Source of the DNA: Desulfocapsa sp.
GTDB lineage: Bacteria; Desulfobacterota; Desulfobulbia; Desulfobulbales; Desulfocapsaceae
Reading direction: 5' to 3'
DNA length: 39,211 nucleotides
Assembly (NCBI GenBank): GCA_030145625.1
Contig: JAQYVF010000044.1
Coordinates: forward strand, 1-39,211
Shown: in pieces, positions 8,440 to 34,644 of the stretch
Numbering within the stretch: position 1 is the stretch's first letter
Layout of the letters: each line of letters starts with the position of its first letter
Program-made: the position numbers and the translations under genes
Notes under the pieces: model-generated
Seen by the model: the letters and a program-made list of their open reading frames with translations, nothing else
The model's database searches: none
What the model was told of the DNA's origin: nothing

Positions 8440-10365
8440 TTGGTCATGAGGCCACTGAAACAGGAACAGTTGGAGGCGTTATTGATCTACCTTCAGGGGG
8501 AAGAGGATTATATCTTTTTCGACACTGTTCGTAGTGATAAGGAAAATGTGTCCTCCCTGCTCTTTTTACATCCCCAGCAGAGACTGGAGTGTTTTCCCGA
8601 AGACGATCCAGTCGCTTTTTGTGCCAAAATGCAGGAGGTGCTGGATCAGGGGCAATACCTGGCAGGATGGATGAGCTATGAGTTTGGCTATTTGCTGGAG
8701 CCGGGGCTGTTTCCTCTGCTTCCCGTAAGTGCGACCGGTGGTGGTCCCCTCGCCTCTTTTGCAGTTTTTTCCGAACCGCTGATGTTTGATCATCAGACAG
8801 GCCGTAATCATTTGCCCTGCTCCTCGACATCCGCGCTCAAGCTACCTGACTTCCAGATTGAAGGTTTACGGCCCAGTCAGTCCCGGAGTAGTTATCTGGA
8901 TGCCATCTGCCGAATTAAGGAATATATCGCTGCCGGTGACACTTACCAGGTCAATTACACCTTAAAGCTTCTCTTTAATTTCTCCGGTTCTGTTGAAAGC
9001 CTGTACCAGACCTTGCGCCGAAACCAATCTGTGGCCTACGGCGCCTTGATGCGTTTCGGCCACGAACATATCCTTTCTCTTTCTCCAGAGCTTTTTTTTC
9101 GTGTCCAGCCTGACTCTATTGTTGTTCGTCCCATGAAAGGCACCTTGAAACGGGGGCGACACATGGAGGAAGATCGAGAGTATTGCCGGATGCTCCAGAC
9201 AGATACCAAGAATCGAAGTGAGAATGTGATGATCGTTGATCTCCTGCGCAACGATCTTGGCCGTCTTATGCGAAAGCTTGGGGATAAAAGGGTGGTGACA
9301 CAGTCGCTCTTTGATGTGGAACGTTATGAGAGTCTGCTGCAGATGACCTCCACCATCAGTGCTGAGACGGGTGAAAATGTGCTGGCCGGGGTTTCGCTTT
9401 CCGATCTTTTTACAGCTCTGTTTCCCTGCGGTTCCGTAACCGGTGCCCCTAAGATTCGGACAATGGAAATTATAGGTGAACTGGAAAAAGAAGCACGCGG
9501 CGTCTATACCGGGGCCATTGGTTATTTCGCTCCGACAGGAAAAGCTGTTTTTAATGTCCCTATCCGCACCATCCGTCTTGCTCATGGAAAAGGAGAGATG
9601 GGGATCGGTTCCGGTATCGTTCATGATTCAATTCCGGAGCAGGAGTGGGAAGAGTGTCTGCTAAAGGGACATTTTCTGACCCAGCCGCTTCCGGAATTTT
9701 ATCTTATCGAGACCCTCCTGTGGGAAGCGGGACAGGGATATTGGCTATTGAATGAGCATCTGGAACGGTTGCAGGAGTCAGCTCTCTTCTTTTGCTTCAG
9801 TTATGACAGGAATGGAAGTCTTGCGTACCTGAAACGGCTGGGCGAAAAGATCGGTGAGCAGTATGCCCGGATTCGCTTGACTCTTCTTAAGGACGGGACC
9901 GTGCAAAACACTTTTCAGCTCTGTGATCCTCCTTCTCATCACGGCCTGCCTGATAATTTGGCAGAATATAATAATGATCTGCCTTGCATCACTCTGTCTG
10001 AAAAAAAGGTGGATTCTTCTTCGCTCTGGTATTTTCACAAAACCAGTCATAGGGATTTGTTTCAGGAGGAGTTTGCCAGGGCACAGGAACAGGGTTTTTT
10101 TGATATCTGTTTTCTCAATGAACGTGAGGAATTGACTGAAGGCTGTATTTCCAACATCATCTTGTATCTTGACGGCAAATTTGTCACTCCCCCTATTTCT
10201 TCAGGGCTCCTGGCTGGAACCATGCGGAAGAAACTCCTTAAACAACCCCACACTGGACTTCAGGAAAAGGTATTGACTCGCGAAGATCTTTACCGGGCGG
10301 ATGGGTTGTTCTGCTGTAATTCCGTTCGAGGCGTGGTTCAGGTCCGTTTGGCAGGTAAGCAATAA
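8440..10365 (+). CDS. pabB: Aminodeoxychorismate synthase component I fused to 4-amino-4-deoxychorismate lyase (PabB-PabC)
   Basis: Residues 1-~415 are a chorismate-utilising enzyme: GDTYQVNYT, the PMKGT motif with K233 (the lysine typical of PabB/ADC synthases), ENVMIVDLLRNDLGR, CGSVTGAPK and GIGSGIVHDS. Residues ~420-641 are a fold-type IV PLP enzyme: K534 in HKTSHR would hold PLP, followed by LTEGCISNI and SSGLLAGTMR. The two halves would make and cleave aminodeoxychorismate to p-aminobenzoate for folate; the PabA amidotransferase subunit must be elsewhere. The fusion is known in other bacteria. Start is uncertain: TTG 8440 lies 9 bases after GGGGAG, while the in-frame ATG 8446 lies 15 bases after it. 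Monocistronic, followed by palindromic element copy A. Confidence 0.93.
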   Translation: MVMRPLKQEQLEALLIYLQGEEDYIFFDTVRSDKENVSSLLFLHPQQRLECFPEDDPVAFCAKMQEVLDQGQYLAGWMSYEFGYLLEPGLFPLLPVSATGGGPLASFAVFSEPLMFDHQTGRNHLPCSSTSALKLPDFQIEGLRPSQSRSSYLDAICRIKEYIAAGDTYQVNYTLKLLFNFSGSVESLYQTLRRNQSVAYGALMRFGHEHILSLSPELFFRVQPDSIVVRPMKGTLKRGRHMEEDREYCRMLQTDTKNRSENVMIVDLLRNDLGRLMRKLGDKRVVTQSLFDVERYESLLQMTSTISAETGENVLAGVSLSDLFTALFPCGSVTGAPKIRTMEIIGELEKEARGVYTGAIGYFAPTGKAVFNVPIRTIRLAHGKGEMGIGSGIVHDSIPEQEWEECLLKGHFLTQPLPEFYLIETLLWEAGQGYWLLNEHLERLQESALFFCFSYDRNGSLAYLKRLGEKIGEQYARIRLTLLKDGTVQNTFQLCDPPSHHGLPDNLAEYNNDLPCITLSEKKVDSSSLWYFHKTSHRDLFQEEFARAQEQGFFDICFLNEREELTEGCISNIILYLDGKFVTPPISSGLLAGTMRKKLLKQPHTGLQEKVLTREDLYRADGLFCCNSVRGVVQVRLAGKQ

Positions 10366-20798: not shown

Positions 20799-21812
20799 AT
20801 GAGTATGACAACGCCCATGTTATTAAATGATTCACTCGATCATAAAGTCGAAGAAATTGATCAGGTAATGGTCGAGCTGGATCATTTTAGGCGCCAGACA
20901 GAACGTCTTGATCTCATGAATAAATTGCATGGTCGGATGGCGGGTGTGCTGGAACTTTCAGGGATGATTGAGGCTTATTCAGTTTGGTTGATGCCTCATG
21001 TGGAGCACGAGCTGGTTGGCTATAATAATCAAGTTCGTGCCCAAAAACATCTCTTCTGTTCAGGGCATGGACCGAAGAGACGATCCATCATCGCTTTTGC
21101 CGAAAAATTGCTGAATAATGGTGATCGAGAAGTTTATGCGTCTATCAATGAAGATGGACATTATGCCCATAAATGGCTCATTGAGACAGCGGAAGATGCA
21201 GGCATTCTGATTATTCTCAAAGATGAGACCGCACTGAACACTGACGAGATTAATCTGATCAACGAGTCGCTTCTTATATTGGCTGAATCTTTACGTCGTG
21301 CCCTGGATTATGAGGAGCTTTTCGAGAGTGCCAGAAAAGATGTTCTTACCGGGCTTGCAAATAGAAGGGTTTTTGAAGAACGTATTCAGGGGGTTATGGA
21401 TGGTGCCAGGCGTTATAATCGGTCGGTAACCATGGCTTCGCTGGATTTGGATCATTTTAAACAGATCAATGATAATCTTGGACATCAACAGGGTGATCGA
21501 GTACTCAGGCAGGTGGCACGTGTCTTTCAGCAGGCTATTCGGACAACGGATATTCTGGTGCGAATGGGTGGGGATGAGTTTATTCTGGTAATGGATAATA
21601 CCAATCAAGAAAACGGTAGAATCCTCGCAGAGAGGCTCTGTGAAGCCGTTGATAATTTGGAAATCTGGGCGGATTCACAGACCAAGCTTGGTGTATCCAT
21701 TGGTATGACTCAGTGGAAGAAAGAAGAGAGCCTGGAGCAGTGGTTGGAGCGAGTTGATGATATTCTCTACAACGCCAAATCTGATGGTCGGTCCAGAGTA
21801 AACGTTTCCTGA
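20799..21812 (+). CDS. Diguanylate cyclase (GGDEF) with N-terminal GAF-like region
   Basis: Residues ~1-170 form a soluble region, coiled coil then a probable GAF-like sensor. Residues ~175-337 are a GGDEF domain opening with DVLTGLANRR; the active-site loop is canonical (GGDEF at 257-261), and the RTTD inhibitory I-site (248-251) lies exactly five residues before it, so the protein should make cyclic-di-GMP and be feedback inhibited. ATG 20799 has AAAGGGA 8 bases upstream. The gene stands alone behind a sigma-54 promoter. Likely counterparts in the window are the HD-GYP regulator at 15437 and the riboswitch at 28597; the link is inferred. Confidence 0.93.
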   Translation: MSMTTPMLLNDSLDHKVEEIDQVMVELDHFRRQTERLDLMNKLHGRMAGVLELSGMIEAYSVWLMPHVEHELVGYNNQVRAQKHLFCSGHGPKRRSIIAFAEKLLNNGDREVYASINEDGHYAHKWLIETAEDAGILIILKDETALNTDEINLINESLLILAESLRRALDYEELFESARKDVLTGLANRRVFEERIQGVMDGARRYNRSVTMASLDLDHFKQINDNLGHQQGDRVLRQVARVFQQAIRTTDILVRMGGDEFILVMDNTNQENGRILAERLCEAVDNLEIWADSQTKLGVSIGMTQWKKEESLEQWLERVDDILYNAKSDGRSRVNVS

Positions 21813-28316: not shown

Positions 28317-28545
28317 TGCTTTTGTTGCCTCTGTGTCGCCTTTTATGAAGGGTTGGTAAAGAGTTTTAAAATTAATTGTAAAAAAAGTTTCGTCCTTTTT
28401 TCTGTTTTTTGTTTTCGCTATCGGTCAGATAGCGGTAATGTCCATAACTAATTGATTGTTAGACGATTCCCCCTCCCTTTCCTCTCTTTTTCTTTGTTGA
28501 TTTTGTTCATATTTGACAAAAAAATGGGTAAATATACCTATTTTC

Positions 28546-28585
28546 AAATGAATCTATCTATGGTTAGGTAAAGGTAGATTCATTT
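28546..28585 (+). repeat. 11-bp inverted repeat just upstream of the riboswitch
   Basis: AAATGAATCTA (28546-28556) and TAGATTCATTT (28575-28585) form a perfect stem with an 18-base loop, immediately 5' of the aptamer. Its 5' arm could alternatively pair with ATTCATT in the terminator loop (28665-28671). A TTGACA at 28513-28518 lies upstream but has no good -10 at 17 bases. Confidence 0.5.
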
Positions 28586-28596
28586 TTAGTTTAAAT

Positions 28597-28662
28597 AAAA
28601 AGCCAAACTTTGAGCAATCAAAGGACGGAAAGCTACGGGGCTATAACAGTCAGCCGGGTTGC
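28597..28662 (+). ncRNA. Cyclic-di-GMP-I (GEMM) riboswitch aptamer
   Basis: The segment follows the GEMM-I pattern: GCCAAAC, a stem CTTTGA/TCAAAG capped by a GCAA tetraloop (28608-28623), GGACGGAAAGC, a second helix GGCT/AGCC (28639-28642 with 28652-28655) and the closing GGGTTGC. Aligned to the Vc2 aptamer, position 20 is G (28602), the base tied to cyclic-di-GMP rather than cGAMP selectivity; A47 (28629) and C92 (28662) are kept. The usual G21-C46 pair is replaced by C28603-G28628, a compensated change. The outer P1 helix is weak. It should control the giant secreted protein gene at 29199. Confidence 0.92.
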
Positions 28663-28689
28663 AAATTCATTGCAGCCCGGCTTTTTTTT
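28652..28689 (+). terminator. Riboswitch expression platform: intrinsic terminator overlapping the aptamer
   Basis: AGCCGGG (28652-28658) pairs with CCCGGCT (28676-28682), and TGCAA with TTGCA inside it, around an ATTCA loop, followed by eight T. Its 5' arm is the same AGCC-GGG-TTGC sequence that builds the aptamer helix and ligand pocket, so the two structures exclude each other. Ligand binding should therefore prevent termination: an ON switch. Confidence 0.88.
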
Positions 28690-29198
28690 GTCCAATCAAA
28701 GAAATCACTGTTTTTTGCGTAGTGAGTAACTATGTGGATGGGATTACCAGTTAAAAGAAAAAAATGGGGGATATTCAGATCATGGTTTTTATCACTGTTG
28801 AGACCAGGTGAGGGGCAAGGGAACCCGTGGTTTGGTCCCCTCTTATTTCGACTCTATCAAGCGGGAAGAAAGCATAGTTGAAAATGTAAAACTCCCTGTT
28901 GATAGCTGATTCAACAGGGAAAAGAATAGGAAAATACAGGCAAATGAAGGTGTTGTCGGCTATATGGAAAATCGGTTTTTTCGCAAGCGAGATCTCCGTT
29001 TTGACAATGCAGGCCGATACAAAAAATACTCTTAAAAGGAACATAAAGAAAAGGAGAATCACCAACTGTTTTCGACAGAAGAGATATGGAACGAAAGTAT
29101 CAACTGCCGTAGCAACGCCATCATGAGAATGGGAGAACCACTAACCAGAAAATAAACTTGCTCGGCATCCCACATTATCACTTAAAGGAGGGTAATGT
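28690..29198 (+). other. ~500-base leader between riboswitch and the giant secreted protein
   Basis: No well supported ORF. A 49-codon frame from ATG 28732 and a frame at 28899-29126 lack ribosome sites and family likeness. Two structured spots: GAGGGG...CCCCTC with an inner AACC/GGTT (around 28813-28846), and a perfect 10-bp hairpin TCCCTGTTGA/TCAACAGGGA (28893-28902 with 28911-28920, 8-base loop). Neither has a U-run on the plus strand, so the riboswitch transcript can reach 29199. Confidence 0.5.
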
Positions 29199-32100
29199 AT
29201 GAAGATTAGGTCTGTTGCTTTCACAGCAGTAACTTCGGTTCTGGCTTGTTTACTCGCTTTCAGTGGTGGCGCTATCGAAGCCCATGGAGAGGAAGGCGCC
29301 GGCAACAATTTGTCCTATCCGGCTGTACTGATAGAAGGGCCCTCTATAGTTCCTTACTTTACCGTGCAGAGTGAAGGACTTGGTGAGACCTATTCGTATG
29401 GCTGCGAAGGCATTGAAATGGATGGTGTATTGAGCTATCCCAACACCTCCTGTGTCGATGACCTGGCAGAGCCGACAATTTACTACACTGCTGCGGAATG
29501 TACAGCGCCAGGCGGCAAATGCGCAGGCAAGTCGGTTACTCGCATGTACTGGCAGAAGGAGGAAGACCACACGTGGAGTTCTCAGGTCACAGGTGTTCCC
29601 ACTGCCGGCAGCGCGCCCGTTAACGCCCGCTACGTGGATTGGGGTGACAGCATCGAAGTGGTAAACTGGAACGATTACTCGGTTCTGCGAGTGGAAACCC
29701 AACCCTTTATCGACCTGAGCCAGGATCCGTTGCCTGAAGTTATTTCAGACACACCAAACACCCAGCAAGGGTTCCAGATGTGGCATGTATCCGGTCATGG
29801 AATCACCGAGCAGTGGGGCGCACGGGTTGAGGAAGTGGCTGGAGAGAGGGGGCTGCCCTATATTTACGATTCACCTTACGCCATTATCAACTCGGGGACC
29901 GCTGACCTCTATCTCACCAAGCTGTTTCCTGGGGATGATGATGATCCTGACTACAAATGCCCTAAAATGGGTGGAGACCAACCTGCCGCGTATCCTGCAG
30001 ACTATCCATTTGAGCCTAATTGGATAGCAGATACAGGGTGGTCGGGTTCCTGCAACCTCCCAGTCGTGCCGTACACGCTCGAACAAAGTGTCTCTGGGAA
30101 GTTTGTCTATGGCTATAACTGGCGGGTGCGCGATCTTGCGGAGCATTTGACGACGTGCGTGGATCAGGTATGGCATAAAACCGGGTGGTGGCGCCTGACA
30201 TACGTAGCGGACGGGGACGACTCAAAGGTGTTGTTCACCGACACCACAGTGACGGGTCCCCCGGTGATACCGCCTGCTATACCGACTGCTCTGTCGACTT
30301 TTTTGTCTCTCTCCGAGGAAAGCGACGAAGATGAAGATGAGGCATCGTTATATACCCCGGTTGTTGATGTTGTAAATAACCTGACCTATATCGATATCTG
30401 TATCGTCGAGAAAAAAGATACTGATCCAGATGAATATTATGTAGTTTCGAGCGTAAACGTAACCGGAAGCGGAACAATTTCCCCGGAAGGATCTCAATGG
30501 GTTGAAAAAGACGACACTGTCTCGTTTGTCCTGGACCCGGCCTTCGATTATTATTTTGGTGAAATAACAGGGACCTGTCCAGCAGGTGCGGCGCCGAGTG
30601 ACAATGGTGACGGTACCTGGAGTTACACTACTGGTAGTATTAAAAGTGACTGTACGGTTATTGCGAATTTCTTTGGAAATTACCAGGTTAGCCTGACGAT
30701 GACCACTGTAGGCCCCGGTACGGTAGTCAGCAATCCCTCAGGTATTGACTGCGGGGACGAATGCATCGCAGACTATGATGCTAATACGGAAGTGGGCCTG
30801 ACCGCCACAGCGGATGCAGGTTCTGTCTTTGTTGGCTGGAGTGGGGATTGTTCAGACGACGGAACGCTGGAGACCAAGGTGACCCTGGATACGGCAAAGA
30901 GCTGCACAGCCACCTTCACAGAGCTATTATATACCATCACTGCCTCCGCATCGCCCACTGCCGGAGGAGAAGTAATCTGCGACCCGAATCCTGTTCTCCC
31001 TGGTTTCGCCTCAGCCTGTACAATCAGCACGAATCCGTACTACACCTTTGATACTGTAACGGGCACCTGCAGCGGTACCCTTGTCGGAGATATCTATACA
31101 ACAGATGCAATCAATGCGGACTGTACGGTCGTTGCCAATTTTATCGCTGACCAGTTCGGCCTGACGGTGACCCTTGACGGGACAGGCACCGGTACGGTAA
31201 GCAGCAGTCCCGCAGGGATTGACTGTGGAGGAGACTGCAGCGAAGACTATGATTACAATACGGTGGTGACCCTGACCGCCATAGCGGATGCAGGCTTCGG
31301 TTTTGCCGGTTGGAGCGGGGATGATGACTGCTCGGACGGCATTGTGACCATGGATGCGGCAAAGAGCTGCATAGCCACCTTTGCAGAGGGACTCACCATC
31401 ACTGCCTCGGCATCGCCAGCTGACGGGGGGGGAGTAAACTGCGACCCGAATCCTGTTCCCACTGGTTCCGCCTCAACCTGTACAATCAGCACGAATCCGA
31501 ACTATACCTTTGATACTGTAACGGGCACCTGCGGCGGTACCCTTGTCGGAAGTATCTATACGACAGACGCAATCAGCGCAGACTGTACGGTCGTTGCCAA
31601 TTTTGTCACTGACCAGTTCAGCCTGATGGTGATCCTTGACGGGACAGGCACCGGTACGGTAAGCAGCAGTCCCGCAGGGATTGACTGTGGAGGAGACTGC
31701 AGCGAAGACTATGATTACAATACGGTGGTGACCCTGACCGCCATAGCAGATGCAGGCTCGGATTTTACCGGTTGGAGCGGGAATTCTGACTGCTCGGACG
31801 GCATTGTGACCATGGATGCAGCAAAGGGCTGCATAGCCACCTTTACAGAGCTATTATATACCATCACTGCCTCCGCATCGCCTGTTGCCGGGGGGGGAGT
31901 AAACTGTGACCCGAATCCTGTTCTCCCTGGTTCCGACTCAACCTGTACAATCAGCACGAATCTGTACTATACCCTTGCTACTGTATCGGGCACCTGCGGC
32001 GGTACCCTTGTCGGCGATATCTATACGACAGCAGCAATCAGCGCTGATTGTACGGTCATTGCCAATTTTGTCATAGACCGGTACAGCCTGACGGTGACCA

Positions 32101-33074
32101 CTGTCGGGACAGGCACCGGTACGGTAACCAGCAGTCCCGCAGGTATTGACTGCGGGGGCGACTGCAGCGAAGACTATGATTATAATACAGGAGTGACCCT
32201 GACCGCCACAGCGGATGCAGACTCCTTCTTTGCTGGCTGGAGTGGGGATGCTGACTGCTTGGACGGCATTGTGACCATGGATACAGCAAAGAGTTGTACA
32301 GCGACCTTTACAGAGCGATACATCATCACTGCCTCCGCATCGCCCGTTGCCGGGGGGGGAGTAAGCTGCGACCCGAATCCTGTTCTCCCTGGTTCCGACT
32401 CAACCTGTACAATCAGCACGAATCCGTACTATACCATTGATACCGTAACGGGCACCTGCGGCGGTACGCTTGTCGGAGATATCTATACGACAGACGCAAT
32501 CAGTGCAGATTGTACGGTCGTTGCGGATTTTGTCATTGACCGGTTCAGTCTGACGGTGACCACTGCAGGGACAGGCACCGGTACAGTAACCAGTAGTCTC
32601 GCAGGTATTGATTGCGGGGACGACTGCAGCGAAGACTATGATTATAATATGGGAGTGACCCTAACCGCCACAGCGGATGCAGGCTCCTTCTTTGCTGGCT
32701 GGAGCGGGGACTGTTCGGACGACGGAACGGTGATGACCATTGTGACGATGGATGCGGCAAAGAGCTGCATAGCCACCTTTACAGAGGGATACACCATCAC
32801 TGCCTCCGCATTGCCCGCTACCGGGGGGGGAGTAAGCTGTGACCCGAATCCTGTTCTTCCTGGTTCCGCCTCAACCTGTACAATCAGCACGAATCCGTAC
32901 TATACCCTTGATGCAGTAACTGGCACCTGCGGCGGTACGCTTGTCGGAGATATCTATACGACAGACTTAAGCAGCGCAGACTGTACGGTCATTGCGACTT
33001 TTGACGGGGGGGGATTCCCCTGGATCCTTTTCCTGCCCACCATATTGAACCAGGGCCATAACGGGGAAGAATAA
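29199..33074 (+). CDS. Giant secreted repeat protein with InlB-B-like (Flg_new/divergent) repeats
   Basis: Strong start: AAAGGAGG just ahead of ATG 29199. Signal peptide (residues 1-~28), then a ~390-residue N-terminal region with scattered cysteines and an acidic linker (SEESDEDEDEAS near 375). From about residue 495 come five double modules of ~154 residues. Each pairs a GTGTVTSSPAGIDCGGDC...GWSGDC...CTATF unit (divergent InlB B-repeat type) with a YTITASASP...CDPNPV...CTISTN...DCTV unit, with paired cysteines suggesting extracellular disulfides. The chain ends GGGFPWILFLPTILNQGHNGEE. It is probably a surface adhesin or matrix protein. The riboswitch at 28597 would raise expression when cyclic-di-GMP is high. 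Each of the last four repeats and the tail hold a G8 run. Confidence 0.85.
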   Translation: MKIRSVAFTAVTSVLACLLAFSGGAIEAHGEEGAGNNLSYPAVLIEGPSIVPYFTVQSEGLGETYSYGCEGIEMDGVLSYPNTSCVDDLAEPTIYYTAAECTAPGGKCAGKSVTRMYWQKEEDHTWSSQVTGVPTAGSAPVNARYVDWGDSIEVVNWNDYSVLRVETQPFIDLSQDPLPEVISDTPNTQQGFQMWHVSGHGITEQWGARVEEVAGERGLPYIYDSPYAIINSGTADLYLTKLFPGDDDDPDYKCPKMGGDQPAAYPADYPFEPNWIADTGWSGSCNLPVVPYTLEQSVSGKFVYGYNWRVRDLAEHLTTCVDQVWHKTGWWRLTYVADGDDSKVLFTDTTVTGPPVIPPAIPTALSTFLSLSEESDEDEDEASLYTPVVDVVNNLTYIDICIVEKKDTDPDEYYVVSSVNVTGSGTISPEGSQWVEKDDTVSFVLDPAFDYYFGEITGTCPAGAAPSDNGDGTWSYTTGSIKSDCTVIANFFGNYQVSLTMTTVGPGTVVSNPSGIDCGDECIADYDANTEVGLTATADAGSVFVGWSGDCSDDGTLETKVTLDTAKSCTATFTELLYTITASASPTAGGEVICDPNPVLPGFASACTISTNPYYTFDTVTGTCSGTLVGDIYTTDAINADCTVVANFIADQFGLTVTLDGTGTGTVSSSPAGIDCGGDCSEDYDYNTVVTLTAIADAGFGFAGWSGDDDCSDGIVTMDAAKSCIATFAEGLTITASASPADGGGVNCDPNPVPTGSASTCTISTNPNYTFDTVTGTCGGTLVGSIYTTDAISADCTVVANFVTDQFSLMVILDGTGTGTVSSSPAGIDCGGDCSEDYDYNTVVTLTAIADAGSDFTGWSGNSDCSDGIVTMDAAKGCIATFTELLYTITASASPVAGGGVNCDPNPVLPGSDSTCTISTNLYYTLATVSGTCGGTLVGDIYTTAAISADCTVIANFVIDRYSLTVTTVGTGTGTVTSSPAGIDCGGDCSEDYDYNTGVTLTATADADSFFAGWSGDADCLDGIVTMDTAKSCTATFTERYIITASASPVAGGGVSCDPNPVLPGSDSTCTISTNPYYTIDTVTGTCGGTLVGDIYTTDAISADCTVVADFVIDRFSLTVTTAGTGTGTVTSSLAGIDCGDDCSEDYDYNMGVTLTATADAGSFFAGWSGDCSDDGTVMTIVTMDAAKSCIATFTEGYTITASALPATGGGVSCDPNPVLPGSASTCTISTNPYYTLDAVTGTCGGTLVGDIYTTDLSSADCTVIATFDGGGFPWILFLPTILNQGHNGEE
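30691..33003 (+). repeat. Tandem ~462-bp coding repeats, five copies
   Basis: Equivalent points lie at 30691, 31159, 31621, 32086 and 32548, giving periods of 468, 462, 465 and 462 bases, all multiples of three. Copies 2 and 3 share long exact stretches at DNA level, while copy 1 is the most diverged, pointing to recent duplication or gene conversion. Confidence 0.9.
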
Positions 33075-33139: not shown

Positions 33140-33270
33140 AATGTGATTGTTGGGGGGCGGGCGATTAAGGAAATTATCCTTCAACAAAAAACGATATAAC
33201 CGGAGGAGATTCAGCCTGACCCTTCTTTGTGGGAGATGTTTTGTCTTGAGAGTTTCGTTTTTTTATTAAA

Positions 33271-33410
33271 GGGTATCTTGAAAAATTAGAATTTTCGTTC
33301 AAAATCGAGGCATGAGAAAAATTTTACCACAGGCATATATTTGATATTCCGAAGATAAAATTTTTCTCATAACAAAGAGTTTGGGCGAAAAGGCAATTTT
33401 GCAAGGTGGC
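33271..33410 (-). repeat. Palindromic intergenic element, copy C (inverted, internally deleted)
   Basis: Reverse-orientation copy of 140 bp. Both arms are intact, but about 48-49 bp of the centre (the CACCCC...GGGCAC part) is missing. It is flanked by TTAAA at 33266-33270 and TTAAA at 33411-33415, a good candidate for a 5-bp target duplication. The arms carry the A/T version of the covarying pair, as in copy B. Confidence 0.88.
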
Positions 33411-34358: not shown

Positions 34359-34547
34359 GGCCACCTTGCAAAATTGCCTTTTCGCCCAAACTCTTCGTTA
34401 TGAGATAAATTTTATTCTCGGAATATCAGGTGTATGCACCCAAATGGCACTTGTACCCGTAGTTAGGGTGATTCTTGCAGGGCACCTGCGGTAACATTGT
34501 TCTCATGCCTTGATTTTGAACGAAAATTCTAATTTTTCAAGGTGCCC
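34359..34547 (+). repeat. 189-bp palindromic intergenic element, copy D
   Basis: Full-length copy with the same ends; it differs from A and B mainly around TCAGGTGTATGCACCCAAATGG, and its inner right arm (AACATTGTTCTC) pairs less well with the left arm than in the other copies. No clear target duplication. It is the only copy placed between divergent genes (34309 minus and 34645 plus). Confidence 0.9.
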
Positions 34548-34644
34548 TTTATTAGCGTGCTAATGATCAAGAAGTGTTTGAGGTCAGTCAACTGATATTG
34601 TACTGTTCTGGTAACGAGGTGAAGAGAAAAGTGTAGGGGACATC

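Follow-up and report, generated by a model that had tools for sequence, protein, structure and literature searches.

Among the closest described relatives of the element presented here are GEMM-I riboswitches of Geobacter. In the pilM riboswitch of Geobacter metallireducens, published as an ON switch, the terminator takes the ligand-pairing C75 (PMC9262584), and the same ON logic is stated for GSU1761 (PMC6456294). Both pilM and GSU1761/pgcA of G. sulfurreducens are cGAMP riboswitches of the GEMM-Ib type. The exchange A20G makes the Gmet_0970 aptamer, a cGAMP sensor, selective for c-di-GMP (PMC6456294); position 20 is said to contribute to selectivity without acting as a hard filter (PMC9262584). 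In the 3',3'-cGAMP riboswitch, C15 and G40 are the ends of P2, flanked by A14 and A41 (PMC6274999). G. sulfurreducens has 17 GEMM-I riboswitches (PMC6456294), and c-di-GMP riboswitches, including tandem ones, are enriched in Thermodesulfobacteriota (PMC12452182).

The window analyzed here, the whole stretch of 39,211 nt of Desulfocapsa sp. DNA, very probably carries a class I cyclic-di-GMP riboswitch that would act as a transcriptional ON switch for a gene encoding an exported repeat protein. As in pilM and GSU1761/pgcA, the terminator captures the 3' arm of the aptamer and the ligand-pairing C. Unlike them, the aptamer has G rather than A at position 20, c-di-GMP is the predicted ligand and the gene is a different one. 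Its assignment as a Geobacter-type c-di-GMP-I transcriptional ON switch, ordinary in kind, is well supported. To this known kind it adds a clear case, from a Desulfocapsa-related lineage, in which c-di-GMP is predicted to switch on an exported repeat protein.

The aptamer and its overlapping terminator

Rfam covariance-model searches matched the c-di-GMP-I model RF01051 (GEMM-Ia) to positions 28593-28667 of the plus strand with 63.6 bits, far above the gathering threshold of 35 (E 7.8e-12 per genome). The original prediction had proposed a GEMM-I aptamer, with this kind of search as its check, and its coordinates for the riboswitch are correct. The alignment was read onto the sequence with residue numbers that we take to follow the Vibrio Vc2 scheme. 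The pocket residues are G20 (28602), A47 (28629) and C92 (28662), and the pairs C21-G46 and C22-G45 fall at 28603-28628 and 28604-28627. In P2, 28608-28613 pairs with 28618-28623 around a GCAA loop of the GNRA type (28614-28617), and in P3, 28631-28641 pairs with 28649-28660. The fold, G20, A47 and C92 are those of RF01051. The outer helix had been described as weak, and it is: the P1 5' strand (28591-28596, plus strand) would pair with 28665-28670 but forms only 4 of 6 possible pairs, and across 17 related copies 66.7% of the cells in the P1 columns are paired, vs 98-100% in the other three helices.

The aptamer is followed on the same strand by an intrinsic terminator, a stem-loop of 13 pairs (8 of them G-C) at 28652-28682 with a run of eight T at 28682-28689. 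The sharing of the aptamer's 3' arm with this terminator, as originally proposed, was confirmed. The terminator 5' arm (28652-28664) overlaps both the P3 3' strand and C92, the two structures are mutually exclusive across 28654-28662, and the terminator stem pairs C28662 (C92) with G28672. The fold z-score at the site is -5.16, and none of 200 shuffles was as stable. The observed element is a real and well-supported c-di-GMP-I aptamer with a terminator. Among 97 distinct aptamers of the same C-G class (see below) that have such a terminator, its pairs switch type yet remain paired; it captures position 92 in 88 of the 97 and pairs it as C-G in 86. In the set of 17 close copies of the subtype, covariation beyond that of shuffles was not found for aptamer or terminator.

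Folds computed for the growing RNA, which ignore ligand and tertiary contacts, keep P3 optimal or within ~1 kcal/mol of the optimum until the 3' end reaches 28674, and keep P1b and P2 in the best fold until 28678. The terminator wins from ~28678, and at 28682 its fold reaches -34.6 kcal/mol vs -19.6 kcal/mol when P3 is kept by constraint; termination is therefore expected of the free RNA. In the proposed mechanism, P1b, P2 and P3 would form first during transcription. Without ligand, the next strand would capture the P3 3' arm and C92, building the 13-bp terminator and stopping transcription at the T8 run. With c-di-GMP in place between G20 and C92, the P3 3' strand would stay with the aptamer; because the ligand pairs with C92, it should hold this arm and permit read-through, and polymerase would then pass through the leader into the gene for the exported repeat protein. 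Ligand-dependent read-through is the best explanation of the arrangement, since the wiring is that of the pilM ON switch as published (PMC9262584). The ON logic of the original prediction is thus supported by the structure, in which the P3 3' arm and C92 are the terminator 5' arm; actual read-through is what we infer from it.

The predicted ligand

G20, A47 and C92 together predict c-di-GMP as the ligand. The G at 28602 agrees with the earlier argument that this residue favors c-di-GMP over cGAMP, and differs from the A20 of GEMM-Ib. Sensing of 3',3'-cGAMP, alone or along with c-di-GMP, is very unlikely; such a reading would leave the ON wiring unchanged. The architecture and the C21-G46 orientation do match the published Geobacter cGAMP riboswitches (PMC9262584, PMC6274999), and 12 of the 17 GEMM-I riboswitches of G. 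sulfurreducens are reported to bind cGAMP (PMC8835794). However, this aptamer has G at position 20, as do 182 of the 189 aptamers read, and it is the A20G exchange that shifts selectivity toward c-di-GMP (PMC6456294). Within this genome, A20 occurs only in a single sub-threshold copy, at position 8485 of contig C143.

That copy (8485-8559) scores 31.2 bits, has C-A at 21-46, and is overlapped by a terminator that looks intact. The gene behind it starts with a signal-like segment, and the stretch upstream of this copy resembles the end of the window's MITE-like repeat described below. It is possibly a decayed or a cGAMP-type copy.

The variant model c-di-GMP-I-GGC (RF03167) matches the same positions of the plus strand (28593-28667) with 61.2 bits, just above its gathering threshold of 59. 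Within its clan it ranks first by E-value for the window, and 15 of its 23 matches in this genome exceed the cut-off. The name GGC presumably refers to positions 20, 47 and 92. The RF03167 consensus has G at position 47, whereas the residue here is A (28629), as it is in 189 of 189 placed aptamers. We rejected this assignment on A47, and a GGC variant with a different ligand is extremely unlikely.

In line with the proposed switch, 32 GGDEF matches exceed the cut-off in the genome, two of them being halves of one domain. One lies in the window: a GGDEF-domain ORF (20799-21812; E 6.2e-44) ~7 kb upstream of the switch, a possible maker of the ligand.

Orientation of the 21-46 pair

The aptamer departs from RF01051 in having C-G rather than G-C at positions 21 and 46, and in its terminator overlap. 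The original prediction regarded this swap as unusual, which did not hold: 20 of the 21 copies in this genome have it, the exception being the copy on C143, which reads C-A and lies below gathering. The published cGAMP aptamer likewise has a C-G pair closing P2 (PMC6274999). A new ligand had been considered as a meaning of the swap and was rejected on these two grounds.

Two sets of aptamers were scored for the orientation of the pair and for an overlapping terminator. The first comprised 121 aptamers from this genome and its relatives; 10 of 29 relative loci were omitted as places already taken, and 7 of 8 matches were used from genome G001, 21 of 24 from G041 and 5 of 8 from G031. The terminator was found in 97 of 102 C-G aptamers, 1 of 17 G-C aptamers and 2 of 2 C-A aptamers; on shuffled downstream stretches the same criterion fires in 4.3, 5.9 and 7.5% of trials, respectively. 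The second set comprised 69 aptamers from a search of the phylum, 40 picked among the matches listed and 29 top-scoring loci, the latter leaning toward the G-C consensus. With one misplaced locus (L159) removed, the terminator was found in 17 of 26 C-G and 1 of 42 G-C aptamers.

Pooled over 87 genomes, the overlapping terminator accompanies 114 of 128 C-G aptamers vs 2 of 59 G-C aptamers (Fisher p 6e-32, a value that overstates independence, as the aptamers are related). The contrast is also seen within G041, a genome with both classes (12/12 C-G vs 1/8 G-C). By eye, one of the two G-C exceptions looks spurious (L121) and the other real (L224). The association is one-way, with 14 of the 128 C-G aptamers lacking a terminator by the criterion used. 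Given these counts and the orientation of the cGAMP riboswitch, the swap accompanies the platform class and does not point to a new ligand. This corrects the earlier view of the pair, and in the phylum surveyed the aptamer by itself allows ON wiring to be guessed, the C-G pair marking the terminator-overlapping class.

A functional coupling of the 21-46 orientation to the expression platform, such that aptamers yielding their arm need C-G, is unlikely; if true, the swapped pair would contribute to the working of the switch besides marking a lineage. Such a need might arise because AAAGCC (17-22) repeats the beginning of the terminator arm and is able to base-pair with its GGCUUU end, or because GGC would mispair with the arm. 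In the window, pairing of the AAAGCC region extends over 8 pairs (28597-28604 with 28679-28686). It was rejected as a general rule, as at least six contiguous pairs are possible in only 42 of 97 aptamers. We do not propose it as a mechanism either, because the T run would still be in the RNA-DNA hybrid when the decision is made.

The downstream gene and its leader

The gene predicted to be under the switch (29199-33074, plus strand) encodes a protein of 1291 aa with a signal-like N-terminus, an unnamed domain of ~310 aa and Flg_new_2 repeats, in line with the secreted repeat protein first described. Ten Flg_new_2 stretches were found (PF18998, E 5.1e-62); they are encoded by a tandem repeat with a 462-nt unit at 30710-33003 of the plus strand (4.9 copies, 86% matches). 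Sequence searches of Pfam and PDB gave no match to the N-terminal domain, and the whole protein had a single NCBIfam match, below cut-off. AlphaFold runs on five sequences of the domain gave no usable model (mean pLDDT 28.3). A role of the protein in a switch to sessile life, as first suggested, is conceivable.

Only 4 of 56 genomes have the full-length N-terminal domain: this one (G000), G007, G002 and G023. In 4 of 4, the same riboswitch subtype lies upstream of the gene, doubled in G023. The leader loci L027, L028 and L029 were taken to be those of G023, G007 and G002, respectively, and were not counted as further evidence. A 302-aa relative of the domain (36% identical) is encoded elsewhere in this genome behind two tandem copies of the subtype (L024, C121:5033 and 5161). 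Together with L118, before the same protein, it makes two doubled relatives, resembling the tandem riboswitches reported from Thermodesulfobacteriota (PMC12452182), whereas the window locus has a single copy.

Between terminator and start codon lies a 509-nt leader (28690-29198, plus strand), which contains a decayed piece of a DDE transposase on the same strand (28847-29083). This piece was recognized by tblastn with L132 (36% over 80 aa; E 1.6e-11 in a database of four leaders), an intact relative of 517 aa with DDE_Tnp_1_6 and DUF772 domains (PF13751, PF05598), which we take to mean the IS1182 group. L132 also matches the L027 and L028 leaders, and in the same search of four leaders it had no match in L029. 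The short relic pieces themselves hit no Pfam transposase family and no usable plasmid sequence; the transposase identity came from the genomes of relatives.

Such a leader could mean that an intact switch no longer controls the ORF, either because the transposase insertion brought a promoter or because the mRNA of the ORF starts within the leader. Besides the length of the leader and the relic, a promoter-like TTGACA-18-AATACT at 29001-29030 points this way, one of 6 promoter-like matches vs 2.6 expected. Against it, the AATACT hexamer is not conserved in L027 or L028, and the plus strand from 28689 to 29300 is free of terminator-like sites. Riboswitch and gene are still together in 4 of 4 genomes despite the insertion, in the order riboswitch, leader, gene, and the switch was doubled in G023. 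We consider a loss of control highly improbable and retain the riboswitch as the probable control element of the gene.

Related riboswitches in the genome

The genome (4.98 Mb, 229 contigs) has 21 RF01051 matches, including the sub-gathering one on C143; across 20 genomes of the genus, this one included, the number ranges from 0 to 21. Such an abundance has parallels, given the enrichment in Thermodesulfobacteriota (PMC12452182) and the 17 riboswitches of G. sulfurreducens (PMC6456294). The genome places ~20 of these switches, mostly before genes with signal-like starts. Among distinct first downstream genes, a strongly hydrophobic, signal-like start was found in 15/19 in this genome, 16/20 in G007, 7/12 in G002 and 6/10 in G023, vs 119/593 for random start points put through the same procedure, which favors such starts in both arms. 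From these sequences, export appears to be a common theme of the riboswitch-led genes. This bears on whether the short terminated RNA could itself be the product, a free c-di-GMP-binding small RNA with read-through only minor. The terminator is strong, but the same arrangement stands beside the same gene in four genomes and most aptamers of this genome precede genes with signal-like starts, so we give that reading almost no credence.

Among the riboswitch-led proteins, one on C138 (17233) follows a copy of the window's subtype and has a twin-arginine-like start and two CxxCH motifs. A DKVVVVPL/NKVVVIPL-like motif occurs at the likely mature N-terminus in L012, L013, L016 and L019 of this genome, L071 and L077 of G007, and L092 and L100 of G002; these are perhaps an exported family under c-di-GMP control. 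Two further stretches, C30:8331-8402 and C26:2851-2925, match only the c-di-GMP-I-GGC model, below cut-off (28.2 and 27.2 bits), and are perhaps decayed aptamers.

The window's aptamer belongs to a subtype with CTTTGAG in P2, with seven members in this genome (the window, C133, C30, C171, C138 and two in tandem in C121). G007 has six and one diverged copy, G002 one, and G023 two in tandem, 17 in total. Most copies share, by eye, an upstream box (28526-28569 in the window, plus strand), a possible promoter or activator site that contains the near-palindrome GGTAAATATACC at 28527-28538 and is lacking ahead of the downstream copy in each of the two tandem pairs. The subtype looks like a copied promoter-plus-riboswitch cassette. 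The box has no obvious TATAAT, and many other aptamers of this genome have, by eye, a TATAAT-like element just upstream; the two sets may differ in their promoters or in an activator.

Downstream of the gene, the window also holds an inverted pair of a ~145-bp self-complementary MITE-like repeat (33264-33410 and 34360-34554) around a His_Phos_1-like ORF; the repeat occurs in at least 40 places of the genome at 91-100% identity.
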